Assembly: GCA_028819845.1 (NCBI GenBank)
Contig: JAPPKS010000002.1
Location: forward strand, 16,605 to 80,604
DNA length: 64,000 nt
From: Candidatus Poribacteria bacterium
Lineage (GTDB): Bacteria; Poribacteria; WGA-4E; PCPOR2b
Reading direction: 5' to 3'
Shown: positions 1 to 61,334 of the stretch, in pieces
Layout: every line of letters begins with the position of its first letter
Numbering within the stretch: the stretch's first letter is position 1
The notes under the pieces: model-generated
Told to the model about the DNA's origin: nothing
Databases searched by the model: none
The model's input: the letters and a program-made list of their open reading frames with translations, nothing else
Made by a program: the position numbers and the translations under genes

Positions 1-342
1 TATCATGATTTGGTGTAAGATTGTGCCCACTAACAGGCACCATATTTCGTGAATTTACCCCCTTTGTAGGCGCGGCATCTTGCCGCGCAATTGATGAGAA
101 ACATCGACTGCTTCTATCATGATTTGGTGTAAGATTGTGCCCACTAACAGGCACCATATTTCGTGAATTGACCCCCTTTGTAGGCGCGGCATCTTGCCGC
201 GCAATTGATGAGCAACATCGACTGCTTCTGTCATGATTTGGTGTAGGATTTCGCTCACTAAAGGACACCATAGTTCGTGAATTGACCCCCTTTGTAGGCG
301 CGGCATCTTGCCGCGCATTCGCTGTGAAACAGCGAATCACTC
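1..342. repeat. 114-bp tandem repeat carrying REP hairpins
   Basis: Three head-to-tail copies begin at 1, 115 and 229. Each contains a REP element (66-88, 180-202, 294-316) spaced exactly 114 bp apart: GTAG, then stem GCGCGGCA, loop TCT, stem TGCCGCGC. The third copy is the most diverged. It is followed by a different 9-bp hairpin at 317-337 (ATTCGCTGT, loop GAA, ACAGCGAAT). Reading frames through this block merely translate the repeat. The array may extend left of the window. Confidence 0.9.
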
Positions 343-15610: not shown

Positions 15611-15880
15611 GTAGGCGCGGCATCTTGCCGCGCAAAGTAGTAGGCACACTCCGTGTACCGTAACTTTTTTGTGCAAACGCACTACCCACACACGGTAGAC
15701 CGGGATCAAGTTTTTGTAGGTTGGGTAGAGCGGATTCATCCAAAAATCGCCCATTAAAACGAACCATCCTGTCAACCTCACTGCGTACAAAACCCGATGG
15801 ATGCAGCGAAACCCAACGCTTTTGAACCTACAAAAACCTATTTAATTTAAAACCGAGTTTTTTCTTCAAAACTCGGTTTT
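15611..15880. repeat. Cluster of REP class 1, 103-bp element and AAACCGAG hairpin
   Basis: A class 1 REP (from about 15611) is followed by GTAGTAGGCACACTCCGTGTACC, a second weaker GTAG-headed hairpin. A full 103-bp GTAGGTTGGGT element lies at 15716-15818, and a class 2 right-hand hairpin (AAACCGAGTTTT ... AAAACTCGGTTT) starts at 15850. This fills the 15470-15909 gap and no gene is seen. Confidence 0.85.
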
Positions 15881-24335: not shown

Positions 24336-25716
24336 CTCGTTCCCCTTTACCCCTGTCGTAGGTGCGGCTTCTTTCCCCTTTACCCTAACCGTAGGCGCGG
24401 CATCTTGCCGCGCTCAAAGTAGAATTCACACTCCGTGTTCCGTCACCCCGTATCCGTTGCCACTTCCCCCGCATTTACCTACTGCAGTCGCGTCCTCTTT
24501 CCCATTTACCCTCTTCGTAGTCACGGCTTCTTTCCCCTTTACCCTAACCGTAGTCGCGTCCTCATTCCCTTTTACCCCCATCGTAGTCACGTCCTCTTCC
24601 CCTTCACCCTTACCGTAGGCGCGGCATCTTGCCGCGCTCAGAGTAGCATGCCCACTCCGTGTTCCGTCACGTCGTATCCGTTGCTTCTTCCCCCGCATAT
24701 CCCTACTGTAGTCGCGGCTCTATCCCCTTTACCGCCATCGTATTCGCGTCATCATTCCCTTTTACCCCTCTCGTAGTCACGGCTTTTTCCGCTTTACCCC
24801 CTGTCGTAGGCGCGGCATCTTGCCGCGCTTAAAGTAGCATGCCTACGCCGTGTTCCGTCACCCCGTATCCGTTGCTTCTTCCCCCGCATTAACCTACTGT
24901 ATTCGCCTCCTCTTTCCCCTTTACCTCCATCGTAGTCACGGCGTCTTTCCCCTTTACCCTAACCGTAGTCGCGTCCTCTTTCCCCTTTACCTCCATCGTA
25001 GGCACGGCCTCTTTCCCGTTTACTTTTACCGTAGGCGCGGCATCTTGCCGCGCTTAAAGTAGCATGCCCACGCCGTGTACCGTCACCCCGTATCCGTTGC
25101 TTCCTTCCCCGCATTTACCTACTGTAGCCACGGCGTCTTTCCCCTTCACCCTTACCGTAGGCGCGGCATCTTGCCGCGCTCAAAATAGAATTCCCACTCC
25201 GTGTGCCGTCACGTCGTATCCGTTGCTTCCTCCCCCGCATTTACCTACTGTAGCCACGGCGTCTTTCCCCTTTACCCCTATCGTAGCCGCGGCTCTTTCC
25301 CTTTTACCCCCATTGTAGTCGCGTCCTCTATCCCCTTCACCCTTACCGTAGGCGCGGCATCTTGCCGCGCTCAAAGTAGCATGCCCACTCCGTGTTCCGT
25401 CACGTCGTATCCGTTGCTTCTTCCCCCGCATTTACCTACTGTATTTGCGTCCTCTATCCCCTTTACCCCCTGTCGTAGTCACGGCGTCTTTCCCCTTCAC
25501 CCTTACCGTAGGCGCGGCATCTTGCCGCGCTCAAAGTAACATTCCCACCCCGTATGCCGCCACACCGTATCCGTTGCCTTATTCCCTTTTATCCCCCTCG
25601 TAGTCACGGCTTTTTCCGCTTTACCCCCTGTCGTAGTCGCATCCTCTATCCGCTTTACCCCCATCGTAGTCACGGCGTCTTTCCCCATACCGTAGGCGCG
25701 GCATCTTGCCGCGCTC
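24336..25716. repeat. Ordered array of REP units and 33-bp repeats
   Basis: Eight REP class 1 copies start at 24391, 24615, 24806, 25031, 25157, 25348, 25508 and 25692. Each is followed by a GTAG-headed second partial hairpin (CACTCCGTGT), a constant segment ending ACCTACTGTA, then n copies of a 33-bp unit of the form GTAGTCACGGC...TTTCCCCTTTACCC. Distances between REPs (224, 191, 225, 126, 191, 160, 184) fit about 93 + n x 33 with n = 4, 3, 4, 1, 3, 2 and about 3. The 24142-25743 gap contains nothing else. Open frames across it in several phases are repeat translations. Confidence 0.9.
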
Positions 25717-36106: not shown

Positions 36107-36793
36107 ATCAACCGACCGAATAGGGAGGGCGATAGTCTTCTGCCTTAAAAACCTCCCGCAACCCAATCAAGCTCGATTATCAAAAATTATGTATTGACTC
36201 ACCGTTGTGTGGGAGAGGCTTCCCAGCCTCGATTTTCAATCACACAAATCACATTTCAGACTAATTTTGTACATTGCCTCGACCACACAAACCCATCATC
36301 GCCAATCTTCCATCCTTCCATTCTTCCAACAATCCTTCACCCGCCGTAGGAGCGATCTCCGAATCGCGACCCGTATTTAAAACCGAGTTTTTTCTTCAAA
36401 ACTCGGTTTCTTAAACTCACAGATTTTCCTTGCCCCGTGTGCGCCACCACACGCCGAAGGCGGGCATCTTGCCCTACGTGTGCCACCACCCCATGTAGGC
36501 GGGGCATCTTGCCCCGCCAATGCTGAAGTAACGTAATTGGTGGAATCACGCGGCGAAATAGGATCAACTGAGCGAAACCCAACGTTCAACCGACCGAATA
36601 GGGAGGGCGATAGTTTTCCTAAGGTCTTCTGCCTTGAAAACCTCCCGCAACCCAATCAACCTCGAATATAAAAAATTATGCATCGACTCACCGGTGTGTG
36701 GGAGAGGCTTCCCAGCCTCGATTTTCAATCACACAAATCACGGTTCAGACTATTTTTGTAAGTTGCCTCGACCACACAAACCCATCATCGCCA
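36092..36793. repeat. Duplicated block with GAGGCTTCCCAGCCTC hairpin; REP classes 1 and 2
   Basis: Two diverged copies of a roughly 215-bp block lie at 36092-36305 and 36572-36793. Each runs from AGCGAAACCCAACG through GTGTGGGAGAGGCT TCCC AGCCTCG (a 6-bp-stem hairpin) to ACCCATCATCGCCA. Between them are a class 2 double-hairpin REP (about 36346-36415) and class 1 variants with GCGGGGCA/TGCCCCGC stems. No gene is seen between 35822 and 36812. Confidence 0.8.
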
Positions 36794-43927: not shown

Positions 43928-44300
43928 CGTGTAAGTTGGGCAGAGCGGATTCATCCAAAACCCACCCGCCGTAGGAGCAATCTCCGAATCGCGACCCCTA
44001 TTTGAAACCGAGTTTTTTCTTCAAACGGTTTCTTCAAAACTCGCCGCATCTCAACCCTCTTCTTCCCCCGTATCCGCACCCTCTTGCTTCACTCACATCC
44101 ATTTCCGTTGTAGGCGCGGCATCTTGCCGCGCATAAAGTAGCAGGCACACTCCGTGTGCCGTCCGCAAAGTTCTTGTAGGTCGGCTTGCGTCGGGAATCA
44201 AGACAAGATTAAAACCGGAGAAAACTATCGCCCCTGTAGGAGCAATCTCCGAATCGCGACCCCTATTTGAAACCGAGTTTTTTCTTCAAAACTCGGGTTT
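43928..44300. repeat. REP cluster: interrupted 103-bp element, REP classes 1 and 2
   Basis: A GTAAGTTGGGCAGAGCG left end (about 43931) is cut after some 40 bp by a class 2 GTAGGAGCAATCT double-hairpin REP. Next come a class 1 REP with the GTAGCAGGCACACTCCGTGTGCC companion hairpin (about 44110-44162) and another class 2 REP (about 44237-44300). This suggests REP insertion into an older element. The rest of 43640-44701 holds no supportable gene. Confidence 0.8.
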
Positions 44301-48897: not shown

Positions 48898-49000
48898 GTA
48901 GGCGGGGCATCTTGCCCCGCGTGCGTCACGGCGTCTTGTAGGCGGGGCATCTTGCCCCGCGTGCGCCACGGCGTCTTGTAGGCGGGGCATCTTGCCCCGA
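48898..49000. repeat. Three REP class 1 copies with a 40-bp period
   Basis: GTAG starts at 48898, 48938 and 48978, each followed by stem GCGGGGCA, loop TCT, stem TGCCCCGC (the last with a terminal change). Compared with the commonest GCGCGGCA/TGCCGCGC form, both arms changed together, keeping pairing. Nothing else is seen in 48819-49230. Confidence 0.9.
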
Positions 49001-50223: not shown

Positions 50224-50683
50224 GTAGGCGAGGCATCTTACTCCGCGTGCGCCACGGCATCTTGTAGGCGGGCATCTTGCCGTGCGTGCGCCATGACATC
50301 TTGTAGGCGTGGCATCTTGCCGCGCGTTCGCCGCGGCATCTTGTAGGCGTGCGCCCTGCTCCGCGGACACTAACTCGCTCCGTAGGCGCGGCATCTTGCC
50401 GCGCGTGCGGCACCACGTCCTGTAGGCGCGGCATCTTGCCGCGCGTTTACCATGACATCTTGTAGGCGCGGCATCTTGCCGCGCGTTCGCCGCGGCATCT
50501 TGTAGGCGTGCGCCCTGCTCCGCGGACACTAACTCGCTCCGTAGGCGCGGCATCTTGCCGCGCGTTTGCCATGACATCTTGTAGGCGAGGCATCTTACTC
50601 CGCGTGCGCTGCGGCATCTTGTAGGCGCGGCATCTTGCCGCGCGTTCGCCATGACATCTTGTAGGCGCGGCATCTTGCCGCGC
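50224..50683. repeat. REP class 1 array (about 12 units, about 39-40-bp period)
   Basis: Copies of GTAGGCG-GCATCTTGCC-type hairpins recur every 39-40 bp, separated by short GC-rich words such as GTTCGCCGCGGCATCTT and GTGCGCCACGGCATCTT. Some units are degenerate (GTAGGCGTGCGCCCTGCTCC). A segment of several units (from GTTCGCCGCGG to the next GCGCGTTTGCC) is itself duplicated. Spacers are short, repetitive and not unique. 50152-50929 has no gene besides. Confidence 0.9.
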
Positions 50684-55119: not shown

Positions 55120-55603
55120 TGTAGTCCCGGCATGTTGCCGCGCGAGTGGCAGCACACGTTGTGGGGGCGGCATCTTTCCCCGCTTACCGCACCACACCCT
55201 GTAGGCGCGGCATCTTGCCGCGCGTGTGACACCGCCCCACACCTCGTAGGCGCGGCATCTTGCCGCGCGAGTGGCAGCGCACGTTGTGGGGGCGGCATTG
55301 TGCTCCGCTTACGACACCACACCCCGTAGGCGCGGCATGTTGCCGCGCGAGTGGCAGCACACGTTGCGGGGGTGGCATCGTGCCCCGCTTACCACACCAC
55401 ACGCTGTAGGCGCGGCATCTTGCCGTGCGTGTGGCAGCACACGTTGCCGGGGTGACATCGCGCCTTGCTTACCACACCACACGCTGTAGGCGCGGCATCT
55501 TGCCGCGCGAATGGCACCGCCCCACACCCCGTAGGCGCGGCATCCTGCCGCGCGAATGGCACCGCCCCACACCTCGTAGGCGCGGCATCTTGCCGCGCGT
55601 GTG
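55120..55603. repeat. Mixed REP array with GTAGGCGCGGCAT and GTGGGGGCGGCAT units
   Basis: About twelve hairpin units at 39-40-bp spacing alternate between the class 1 form and a GTGGGGGCGGCAT...CCCCGC form, joined by GAGTGGCAGCACAC and TTACCACACCACAC words, so the period is about 80 bp for the pair. The last unit lies only about 20 bp before the glycerate kinase ATG. Contains no gene. Confidence 0.9.
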
Positions 55604-57944: not shown

Positions 57945-57983
57945 CTTTAACGTGTCATTCACGTTTCCAACGCGTTTTATCAG
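57945..57983. repeat. Left 39-bp direct repeat flanking the RAYT cassette
   Basis: From CTTTAACGTGTC to GTTTTATCAG. It matches 58889-58927 at 37 of 39 positions, same orientation. The RAYT gene and all its REPs lie between the two copies. Confidence 0.85.
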
Positions 57984-57999
57984 CACAAACCTCAGCCTT

Positions 58000-58062
58000 G
58001 TAGGCGCGGCATTTTGCGCCGCGTACACCACCACGTTCCGTAGGCGCGGCATCTTGCCGCGC
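58000..58062. repeat. Two REP class 1 copies upstream of the RAYT gene
   Basis: GTAG starts at 58000 (a form with GCGCGGCA TTT TGCGCCGC, near palindrome) and 58040 (consensus form). The second ends 22 bp before the transposase ATG. Confidence 0.85.
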
Positions 58063-58083
58063 AATGACCCGACACATAATTCA

Positions 58084-58569
58084 ATGGCAACTACCATGAC
58101 CGCAATCCCAAATCGAAAAAACCATCAATTGCGCAAAGGCCGACACACGATATCGGGCGCATATTACTTTTTGACAACCGTCACATTCAAACGACGACGT
58201 TTACTCTCGAGCTCCCACGCCGCACAAATCGTTTTCGATGCATTCCAATGGCTTGAAAACGAGGGACGCATCAAGCGGATATGTATTATAATAATGCCTG
58301 ACCATATTCATGCGGTGGTTCAACTGGGGTGCAACCAAGCGCTGGCACGCATCATGCATACCTTCAAGAGTTTCACGGCGAAGAAGATTAACGCGCTGCT
58401 TGATGAAGCTGGTTCCGTATGGCAAAAGGGGTATTATGACCATGCCGTTCGGGATGAGGGTGCGTTGAATGACACTATACGGTATTGTTATGACAACTCG
58501 GTGCGGAGTGGCCTAGTCAAATTGGCAAAGGATTATCCGTATTGGTGGTGTAAATTTGAGCTGGAGTAG
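58084..58569 (+). CDS. REP-associated tyrosine transposase (RAYT, Y1_Tnp)
   Basis: About 161 aa. HUH endonuclease-type Y1 transposase of the REP-associated subgroup: HUH motif H74-I-H76 in MPDHIHAVVQ, and catalytic Tyr134 (or 136) in DTIRYCYDNSVRSGLV. RAYTs bind REP hairpins and their 5' GTAG tetranucleotide and nick single-stranded DNA. An ATG at 57928 is in frame but would translate the upstream REPs, so ATG 58084 is chosen. Domain and length are complete, so it may be active. It is embedded in class 1 REPs on both sides and flanked by 39-bp direct repeats. It is the only transposase in the window. Confidence 0.9.
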   Translation: MATTMTAIPNRKNHQLRKGRHTISGAYYFLTTVTFKRRRLLSSSHAAQIVFDAFQWLENEGRIKRICIIIMPDHIHAVVQLGCNQALARIMHTFKSFTAKKINALLDEAGSVWQKGYYDHAVRDEGALNDTIRYCYDNSVRSGLVKLAKDYPYWWCKFELE

Positions 58570-58581
58570 ACCGCGTGGCCT

Positions 58582-58760
58582 GTAGGCGCGGCATCTTGCC
58601 GCGCACAAACGTCAGATCTTGTATGCGTGGCATCTTGCGCTGCGTGCGTCACCGCCCCTGTAGGCGCGGCATCTTGCCGCGCGCAAAATTCAGGCTTTGT
58701 ATGCGTGGCATCTTGCGCTGCGTGCGTCACCGCCCCTGTAGGCGCGGCATCTTGCCGCGC
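58582..58760. repeat. Three REP class 1 copies in 78-bp tandem units
   Basis: GTAG starts at 58582, 58660 and 58738, exactly 78 bp apart. Each of the first two is followed by a less perfect REP-like unit (GTATGCGTGGCATCTTGCGC) and GCGTGCGTCACCGCCCCT. Starts 12 bp after the RAYT stop. Confidence 0.9.
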
Positions 58761-58888
58761 CCAATACCGGATTAACGTATACTATGGGAATAAGCGCCCA
58801 AATTGTGAGCGCAATAGACATTTTTTGGGCGTATAGAAATCATGGCAACACATCAACATTGAATTAACCAGGAAAGATGCGCATTAAC

Positions 58889-58927
58889 CTTTAACGCGTC
58901 ATTCACGTTTCCAACGCGTTTTATCGG
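58889..58927. repeat. Right 39-bp direct repeat flanking the RAYT cassette
   Basis: From CTTTAACGCGTC to GTTTTATCGG, with two differences from 57945-57983. It lies about 40 bp upstream of the PorV-like gene, so it may contain promoter or leader sequence of that operon. Confidence 0.85.
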
Positions 58928-58966: not shown

Positions 58967-59920
58967 ATGATAAAATTGAAAATCGTCATCTCCGGAATTG
59001 CGGTTTTATTTGTACCCGGCGGTTTAGCGTTCGCTGCATTCAACGATATCGGCGTGGGAGCACGCCCGCTGGGGTTGGGCGGCGCATTCGTAGCCATGGC
59101 GGACGACGGCAATGCAGCACATTATAACGCTGCGGGACTAGGCTATATTGATAAATACCAGTTAAGTGCGACGTATGCGCAGCGGTTCCAAGGACTTGTC
59201 CGTTACGACTACATCGGCGGCATATTGCCGCTCGCAGCCGCCGGCACACTAGGATTAAGCATCGGTATTCTCAGCGAAGAATCTCAAGTTTATGATGAAC
59301 AGACTATAAAACTCTCTTACGGCAAATCGTTCTTACAGAAATTTGCGTTTGGCGTAAACCTCAAATCTCTGGGGACTCGCTTCGATGAAGAAAATGAATC
59401 CGTTCGCGCCAATCCGTATTTTGCCGAGAAAACCGATGCTTCTGCTTTTTCATTTGATGTCGGTTTGCTAGCAAAGCCGGTGCTAGGCTTCAGTTGGGGG
59501 CTTTCGGTGGAAAACCTGCTTCCGGCGGATATAAGCGTCTCTGAGGCACATGAGGATAAAATTCCTGTCAATATGCGCACCGGATTCGCGTACAGCCTTG
59601 AGGCGATTGCAGAGACCATTGCGCAGGAATCCTTACGTGAAGCGCTAAAATCCAGCGTCGGGCTCCTCGACTTTAGTATTCGAGATGGAAATCGTCAGAT
59701 TCACGCCGGTGCGGAAGTGTGGTTCAATCAATCCATAGGCGTTCGCGGCGGCTATGCGGTGTCAAGCGGTGTGAATAGCGCGGGCGCTGTCGTAGTCGGC
59801 GGGAGCGCTAGAATTCCCATTTCAGAGTTCAACCTCCAACTGGACTACGCGTTCCAGATTCTCACAGGTAATCTTGAGAACAACACGACGCAGCGCATTT
59901 CACTAAATGTGATGTTTTAG
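58967..59920 (+). CDS. PorV/PorQ-like outer-membrane beta-barrel protein (UPF0164)
   Basis: 317 aa. Signal peptide (about 1-24, ending LAFA) and FNDIGVGARPLGLGGAFVAMADDGNAAHYNAAGLG, the N-terminal hallmark of PorV/UPF0164 barrels, followed by alternating amphipathic strands ending in the typical aromatic terminus (RISLNVMF). In T9SS, PorV shuttles cargo with C-terminal sorting domains. The next gene, 16 bp downstream, is such a cargo-like protein, so the pair is probably one operon. The ribosome-binding site is AAAGGGAAAA. No other T9SS core gene is in the window, so export-system membership is inferred. Confidence 0.87.
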   Translation: MIKLKIVISGIAVLFVPGGLAFAAFNDIGVGARPLGLGGAFVAMADDGNAAHYNAAGLGYIDKYQLSATYAQRFQGLVRYDYIGGILPLAAAGTLGLSIGILSEESQVYDEQTIKLSYGKSFLQKFAFGVNLKSLGTRFDEENESVRANPYFAEKTDASAFSFDVGLLAKPVLGFSWGLSVENLLPADISVSEAHEDKIPVNMRTGFAYSLEAIAETIAQESLREALKSSVGLLDFSIRDGNRQIHAGAEVWFNQSIGVRGGYAVSSGVNSAGAVVVGGSARIPISEFNLQLDYAFQILTGNLENNTTQRISLNVMF

Positions 59921-59936
59921 GTAAAAGGGGGAAAAC

Positions 59937-61334
59937 GTGACAAAACGCCATTTCACCATCGGAATAATTACCTTGTTTCTTCTGTGTGCGGCGCTTAGCG
60001 CTAACGCTGCCGTAGACTCCAGAGGCGAAATAAACGTTGAAGGAGACAATCAAGGGCGTGCACCCGCAAGTTCCACGGTGACGTTAATTGTAGCCCTTAC
60101 CATCGATCGGTCGCTCGCAGAACCCGGCACAGAAGACATCAGAACCATGGAAATCAGGTTGGCACAAGCGCAGATGTTCTGGCAGACGAATTTTCGATTC
60201 GTGGCGCGAGACGGCGAGCCAATTGCAGCTGTGCCGGAAATCACAGGGAATATCCTGCGAATTGTTCTCACCAATCCCATTGCGGATCTGAGTAACGCAT
60301 ATTACGAAATTGTTTTCGACAGCCGAACCCCGGAAACCACGGGCGCGGCAAATTTTAACGTGCGGCTCAGAAATAAGGAAGACCGCCCAATCGGCGAAGC
60401 TATCAAACCGGGCAATGTAGACGGCAAATCAAACAATAATGACTTTTCCCTACTGGTTATTCCCAACGTACCCCCGGCCCCCGTACAAGGGTTTACAGTG
60501 GAGACGGAGCCCACTGGCGAAAACGACGTAATCATTAAATGGCACAAGTCGGCTGACTCGGATGTCAACGGCTATTTCATTTATCGTGACGCTGATCCGC
60601 CAATCAATGTCGAAACGCCGTCTGCGACCGTTTTTCAAGATGTGAATGTTCCTCCGGGAACGCACAGTTACTCAATTTCAGCCTACAAGACACCGCTATT
60701 GCAATCCACCCGTTCTGAGCCAATCTTCGTTGACGTTCACCCGGATACTGCCGCGCCGCGACCGCCCGCGGGCGTCGCAATTAATACAGTCGGCGGCAGG
60801 ATTGAAGTGACGTGGGAGAGTAGTCCCACTCGCGATGTTGCGGAATACAGACTCTTTTTTGGGCGGTTAAGCGAACCGTTGACCCCTATACTTGATGAGA
60901 CCGGTAACGATGGAAAAATTCCTGCCGATCAGCCGTTGGAATTTATCGACCGGCGCGCACTCGGCGTGGGCGTTTTTATTTACGCTGTCGAAGCAATTGA
61001 CGAAGCCGGTAACAGGTCAGAACAAACCGCTCAAACGCTTCGAATTCTCGGCGAACCCTTTCCCAATCCTTTTACCCCGCTTTCGAGCAATGCCGATTAC
61101 AACCGTGTTGTGTTTCCCGCGCGCGCAATTGAAGATGCTGAAGGAGAATTCACGGTCCTGATTTTCAACATCAACGGCGTGCTTGTCAAAGAGTTGATAG
61201 GAGATGCGGGCGCGCGCGAGCTAGAATGGAACGGCGAAGACGAGGATGGCAATCTCGTCGAAAGCGGCGTTTACGTTTACCAAATGCAGGTCGGCGAAAG
61301 CTTCAAAACCGGCACCGTAATCGTCGCGAAATAA
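59937..61334 (+). CDS. Exported protein with FN3 domains and C-terminal sorting domain
   Basis: 465 aa. GTG start with GGGGG 9 bases upstream and a signal peptide (about 6-25, ending ANAA). An N-terminal beta-rich domain (about 30-170) reminiscent of cohesin or exported Ig folds is followed by two fibronectin type III domains (about 177-268 and 270-368; WHKSADSDVNGYFIYRD) and a FlgD/T9SS-type sorting domain (about 372-465; GEPFPNPFTP ... VYVYQMQVGE). It lies 16 bp after the PorV-like gene and ends at a strong terminator, so the two form an operon. Ligand unknown. Confidence 0.88.
   Translation: MTKRHFTIGIITLFLLCAALSANAAVDSRGEINVEGDNQGRAPASSTVTLIVALTIDRSLAEPGTEDIRTMEIRLAQAQMFWQTNFRFVARDGEPIAAVPEITGNILRIVLTNPIADLSNAYYEIVFDSRTPETTGAANFNVRLRNKEDRPIGEAIKPGNVDGKSNNNDFSLLVIPNVPPAPVQGFTVETEPTGENDVIIKWHKSADSDVNGYFIYRDADPPINVETPSATVFQDVNVPPGTHSYSISAYKTPLLQSTRSEPIFVDVHPDTAAPRPPAGVAINTVGGRIEVTWESSPTRDVAEYRLFFGRLSEPLTPILDETGNDGKIPADQPLEFIDRRALGVGVFIYAVEAIDEAGNRSEQTAQTLRILGEPFPNPFTPLSSNADYNRVVFPARAIEDAEGEFTVLIFNINGVLVKELIGDAGARELEWNGEDEDGNLVESGVYVYQMQVGESFKTGTVIVAK

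Follow-up and report, generated by a model that had tools for sequence, protein, structure and literature searches.

A RAYT gene set among lineage-specific GTAG REPs in a Poribacterial genome, and REP orientation that follows GC skew

A single gene that appears to code for a REP-associated tyrosine transposase (RAYT, or TnpA-REP) and is closely hemmed in by palindromic repeats raises the question of whether its product generated the many copies of those repeats found around it, and what their arrangement records of the process. The gene lies in the 64,000-nucleotide stretch of DNA analyzed here (the window; C9:16605-80604), which belongs to a 4.6-Mb (4.61 Mb) Candidatus Poribacteria-type MAG, G000, from a bacterium of the sponge-symbiont type. 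An initial annotation had proposed a RAYT with an HIH motif and Tyr134, flanked within 25 bp on both sides by REPs of one class (class A below), and had named it as the likely source of their expansion. The locus is organized as follows.

57945..57981, + strand: left copy of a 37-bp direct repeat that brackets the RAYT-REP cassette
58000..58022, + strand: variant class A REP, GTAGGCGCGGCATTTTGCGCCGC
58040..58062, + strand: exact class A REP, ending 21 bp before the ATG at 58084
58084..58569, + strand: RAYT gene, 161 aa counted from the ATG at 58084
58582..58604, + strand: exact class A REP, starting 12 bp past the RAYT stop
58621..58643, + strand: degenerate REP, GTATGCGTGGCATCTTGCGCTGC
58660..58682, + strand: exact class A REP
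58699..58721, + strand: degenerate REP, a copy of that at 58621 within a 78-bp tandem unit
58738..58760, + strand: exact class A REP
58889..58925, + strand: right copy of the 37-bp direct repeat, 41 bp before the ATG of a PorP/SprF-like gene

The open reading frame at 58084-58569 is confirmed as a genuine RAYT of a known kind. It matches the NCBIfam model NF047646 (REP_Tyr_transpos) with an E value of 1e-36 (126 bits against a cut-off of 80), Pfam Y1_Tnp at 5.8e-12, and the Escherichia coli TnpA-REP (PDB 4er8) at 1.2e-6. Alignment with the last places the DHIH of the window RAYT opposite the HUH motif, Tyr134 opposite E. coli Tyr115, and the Asn138 position opposite N119, a residue whose role in the E. 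coli protein has been described (PMC6006769). D73-H74-I75-H76, Y134 and N138 are invariant across an alignment of seven rows (the window RAYT and six Poribacterial homologue rows), two of which are near-identical; after the tyrosine, the window RAYT has DNSV, whereas all its aligned homologues have ENPV or HNPV. The homologues begin at a position corresponding to an internal ATG at 58096, which is the likely true start. The closest named relatives are from Poribacteria MAGs, and the Poribacterial clade is 48-70% identical to the window RAYT. A dN/dS of about 0.13 against the orthologue in the relative G001 (locus L006), with synonymous sites near saturation, points to purifying selection. The protein is related to the Y1 transposases of the IS200/IS605 group (IS608, ISDra2), but its gene is single-copy in the genome and its score against the IS200 model is 43.4 bits, under the cut-off of 55, placing it outside that family. 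Like described TnpA-REP systems (NF047646, 4er8), it combines an HUH motif in the HIH form, a single tyrosine, a downstream asparagine and a single gene flanked by GTAG REPs; it differs in belonging to a Poribacterial clade, in which the L006 orthologue carries, besides its flanking REPs, two further class B REPs (see below) in frame within its coding sequence, the frame remaining open over 180 aa. Downstream of the window RAYT, 58967-61334 codes for the PorP/SprF-like protein and then for a protein with an FlgD-Ig domain and a CHU_C type IX secretion sorting-type domain, the latter below the cut-off.

The class A REP, GTAG-GCGCGGCA-TCT-TGCCGCGC, consists of an unpaired GTAG, a perfect 8-bp stem and a TCT loop, as initially described; as ssDNA it folds as ....((((((((...)))))))) with -11.7 kcal/mol and a z score of -4.6. 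A sister type, class B (GTAG-GCGGGGCA-TCT-TGCCCCGC), differs from it by one flipped stem base pair. Elsewhere in the window, the two classes are distributed as follows.

66..316, + strand: class A array, 3 exact copies with a 114-bp period
24391..25714, + strand: class A array, 8 exact copies interspersed with a 33-nt repeat
36495..36517, + strand: single class B REP
44110..44132, + strand: single class A REP (other singles at 15611 and 52940)
48898..49000, + strand: class B array, 3 copies with a 40-bp period
50303..50683, + strand: class A array with 40- and 79-bp periods
55121..55598, + strand: class A array with 40- and 45-bp periods

The dozens of copies claimed for the window are borne out: it holds 40 with up to 3 mismatches, class B included, all on the + strand, with none in shuffled sequences. 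Genome-wide, class A has 73 exact copies and 221 with up to 3 mismatches (0 in a reversed control), and GTAG is strongly overrepresented ahead of 8-bp hairpins (166 occurrences versus 2-14 for each of seven other tetranucleotides). With an unpaired GTAG, a perfect stem, a short loop, more than 100 copies and a mostly intergenic location, these elements belong to the GTAG REPs; 51 of 234 lie inside predicted ORFs of at least 120 aa, some of which are probably spurious products of the arrays themselves. They resemble the Stenotrophomonas-type GTAG REPs (PMC3686654, PMC3733652) in having a perfect stem (8-9 bp in that type) directly after GTAG and a short loop. The extreme copy density that had been proposed as new applies locally but not genome-wide, since classes A and B together amount to about 260 copies with up to 3 mismatches in 4.6 Mb, while Pseudomonas fluorescens SBW25 has 1,422 REP 16-mers in its extragenic space (PMC3116915).

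Several further observations concern these repeats. The 33-nt repeat interleaved with REPs at 24358-25714 contains TTTCCCCTTTACC. A third GTAG hairpin type, GTAGGCACAC-TCC-GTGTGCC, occurs in 16 copies in 1.92 Mb of the genome, and related sequence directly follows class A at some sites (C9:32215, C9:60714). Outside the window, C9:151406-152200 is made up of 191-bp tandem units with one class A REP each and includes an N gap, which indicates that REP arrays break the assembly. A search of viral contigs for class A and B REPs found none.

The distribution of the two classes bears directly on the source of the expansion. Class B is represented in G000 by 87 copies with up to 1 mismatch, with singletons dispersed over the genome, and is also present in eight relatives (G001, G004-G009 and G012); class A is absent from those eight, bar one hybrid match with 1 mismatch, and is lineage-specific. 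Exact class A loci are concentrated on the RAYT contig, C9, which has 12 of the 22 but makes up 3.3% of the genome (p=9e-13), versus 2 of 40 class B loci. This concentration fits the cis-preference of RAYTs proposed in PMC3686654, with the caveat that class A copies lie at the ends of C22, C28, C29 and C32; these contigs may be adjacent to C9, and segmental duplication could then account for part of the spread of class A.

Class B REPs directly adjoin both ends of the L006 orthologue (G001:C54, 6004-6546), which shares 70% identity with the window RAYT and stands in a different gene neighborhood, beside a gene for a RecQ-like helicase (a name given from its sequence, without a database search). 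Orthologues in G005, G006, G007 and G009 adjoin REPs of the form GTRGGAG-stem-TCCN-stem, as read by eye from their flanks. The second RAYT of G000 (L004; C26:282111-284095), 48% identical to the first, is flanked by head-to-head REPs of another design, GTAGGAGGGAATTCCGATTCCCGAC / GTAGGAGCGATCTCCGCATCGCGAC, in one of which its contig ends, and is for that reason an unlikely source of class A or B. Thus, each RAYT sits in its own REP type, and orthologous RAYTs are associated with different variants of one orthogroup (class A here, class B at L006), as in the orthoswitch model put forward, like cis-preference, in PMC3686654. Our case shares with that model the persistence of the older variant elsewhere in the genome; it differs in coming from Poribacteria and in that the new variant is concentrated locally, near its RAYT. 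The model also has the older variant decay once the switch has occurred; class B shows little more decay than class A (49% versus 60% exact copies, p=0.12), and a search of G000 found no class B-flanked RAYT. On the basis of the near-absence of class A from the eight relatives, its concentration near the RAYT and the class B flanks of the orthologue, the window RAYT probably gave rise to the class A expansion, in line with the initial annotation. The accompanying expectation that the REPs would be confined to RAYT-bearing relatives is partly contradicted by sister class B: G012 has 144 class B-type copies and no RAYT closer than 26% in a MAG that is 92% complete, and G008 has 32 such copies and no RAYT match in one that is 88% complete. 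These cases weaken a strict rule that REPs need a RAYT, though this is tempered by the incompleteness of the MAGs and by a published survey in which REPs with a missing RAYT are common (PMC3686654).

What is unusual in this genome is the head-to-tail, skew-aligned orientation of the REPs rather than their density, so that of the array assembly originally singled out as novel, it is the order and strand bias that stand apart. Neither head-to-tail order nor skew tracking had been mentioned there, and the same is true of the 37-bp repeat. Our analysis of orientation covered 1.92 of 4.61 Mb, with 234 REPs with up to 3 mismatches and 64 scored clusters. Adjacent REPs are mostly head-to-tail with a dominant 40-bp period, having the same orientation in 135 cases versus the opposite in 15, and thus do not form the inverted pairs of a REPIN or BIME; neighboring clusters agree 35 times and disagree 4 times. 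Most published GTAG families, in contrast, form head-to-head or tail-to-tail dimers, with head-to-tail pairs absent or underrepresented (PMC3733652), a difference that extends to the Stenotrophomonas type.

The strand carrying GTAG is the C-rich strand in 58 of the 64 clusters. Clusters sharing a contig are not independent, and more weight therefore goes to the agreement of orientation with the sign of GC skew in 23 of 26 100-kb bins after coding-strand correction (p=9e-5) and in 12 of 13 whole contigs (p=0.003). The match extends to the subsets scored: singletons (28/32), arrays (30/32), class A (20/21), class B-only clusters (32/36) and the clusters left when C9 and C10 are set aside (31/36). 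Transcription was rejected as a cause because REP orientation matches flanking gene direction in only 34 of 59 cases (p=0.30). The arrays were likewise rejected as the maker of the skew, which is also seen in intergenic DNA at distances above 300 bp from REPs and at the third positions of codons. As for markers of replication polarity, the S10 and atp operons on C10 agree with the REP direction, tRNAs tend the opposite way, and a search of the MAG for 16S rRNA found none. Among relatives, G009 and G012 have mixed orientations, and no bias was detected at the sites in G005 (8/16, with low power), an outcome unchanged by the reading of sites L150 and L153 on the strand opposite to their listing; G005 is a single contig in which the sampled skew is too weak to place the origin and terminus. 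SBW25 offers a partial precedent in that its tandem arrays run forward in one place and in reverse elsewhere, on opposite sides of the chromosome (PMC3116915), but there such arrays are a minority beside the inverted pair as the main unit, whereas in the Poribacterial genome the alignment with strand skew is genome-wide and extends to singletons as well as arrays, in class A and class B alike.

Taken together, these observations are best accounted for by a REPtron, i.e., a single-copy RAYT with cognate GTAG-hairpin REPs, that underwent an orthoswitch, with copying by the RAYT and fork-linked orientation of the copies, an overall explanation to which we assign a probability of roughly 0.75. Class A would have replaced class B as the REP flanking this RAYT, after which the enzyme would have placed new class A copies elsewhere, with a preference for sites close to its gene, and with tandem duplication building the 40-bp head-to-tail arrays. 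The RAYT is predicted to bind and nick the GTAG strand of the class A hairpin, its probable substrate, and may recognize that strand alone, in single-stranded form. Because the hairpin is palindromic, only GTAG and the neighboring sequence would tell the strands apart; in keeping with this, TnpA-REP binds the REP but not its reverse strand, and GTAG discriminates strands in small-stem REPs (PMC8266576). Y1 transposases have been linked to the lagging strand, and for IS200/IS605 both the use of ssDNA and coupling to the lagging-strand template are documented (PMC6006769). By analogy, the RAYT may work at replication forks with one of the two template strands as its main target, which would give new copies a set orientation with respect to replication. 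Strand-specific insertion at forks appears to be the best-supported reading of the orientation bias; that REP polarity records, across the genome, a transposition of REPs that is strand-specific and coupled to replication, together with head-to-tail array growth, is a more tentative proposition, to which we give somewhat less than an even chance. Counting against the explanation, neither an insertion event nor an empty site was seen.

An alternative in which the RAYT is incidental, merely one REP-adjoining gene, and class A copies are passengers of tandem or segmental duplication with hairpin slippage, would account for the multiscale tandem units of the arrays (40, 78, 114 and 191 bp), the clustering of class A on one contig and the adjacent sequences that some loci have in common. 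We consider it unlikely, because slippage of a palindromic hairpin alone gives no orientation preference, yet singletons are oriented as noted above; moreover, the sister RAYT at L006 also has REPs on both sides in its different neighborhood, and class B singletons are scattered over the genome.

The 37-bp repeat, CTTTAACGYGTCATTCACGTTTCCAACGCGTTTTATC, coincides with the ends of the interval first reported (57945-58927) and may have been left behind when the cassette inserted or by a tandem duplication. Its copies are 36/37 identical and are the only two sites in the genome with up to 3 mismatches; with no copy elsewhere, it was rejected as a dispersed element. This uniqueness would suit a transfer of the whole cassette (57945-58925) as a mobile REPtron, with the repeat as a target duplication or recombination footprint, as would the fact that, with the cassette and one repeat copy removed, the divergent genes on either side would be separated by an ordinary intergenic stretch of about 270 bp, and the location of the L006 orthologue at another site beside its helicase gene. 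Such a transfer is compatible with the REPtron explanation but is itself rather improbable. Transposases of the IS200/IS605-type Y1 HUH group are not known to make such duplications, and no empty site was found. Furthermore, other REP clusters also have flanking direct repeats of at least 20 bp (9/63 versus 6/315 controls), some of which look like dispersed elements.

The notion that orientation is instead kept by selection, with REPs serving as polar motifs of the chromosome, comparable to Chi or the sites that guide FtsK, or as one-sided landmarks for replication or supercoiling, and the RAYT only supplying copies, would explain why they track skew across stretches of hundreds of kilobases whatever the direction of transcription but is very improbable, given that the copies are clumped in arrays with uneven spacing, the REP type turns over between genera, class B-rich relatives have mixed orientation, and no partner protein is known.

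RAYT-REP pairs and the orthoswitch pattern are known from published work; what is added here is the phylum Poribacteria and a fresh, lineage-specific REP class, so that the group now has a documented RAYT-REP pair, apparently a recent one, with an orthoswitch. The spread of REPs is still poorly understood, and their insertion by RAYTs is inferred rather than seen. That orientation follows skew in both REP classes, including singletons, is evidence for strand-specific insertion, and the combination of oriented REPs with class A concentrated at its RAYT makes a replication-coupled model of REP spread testable.
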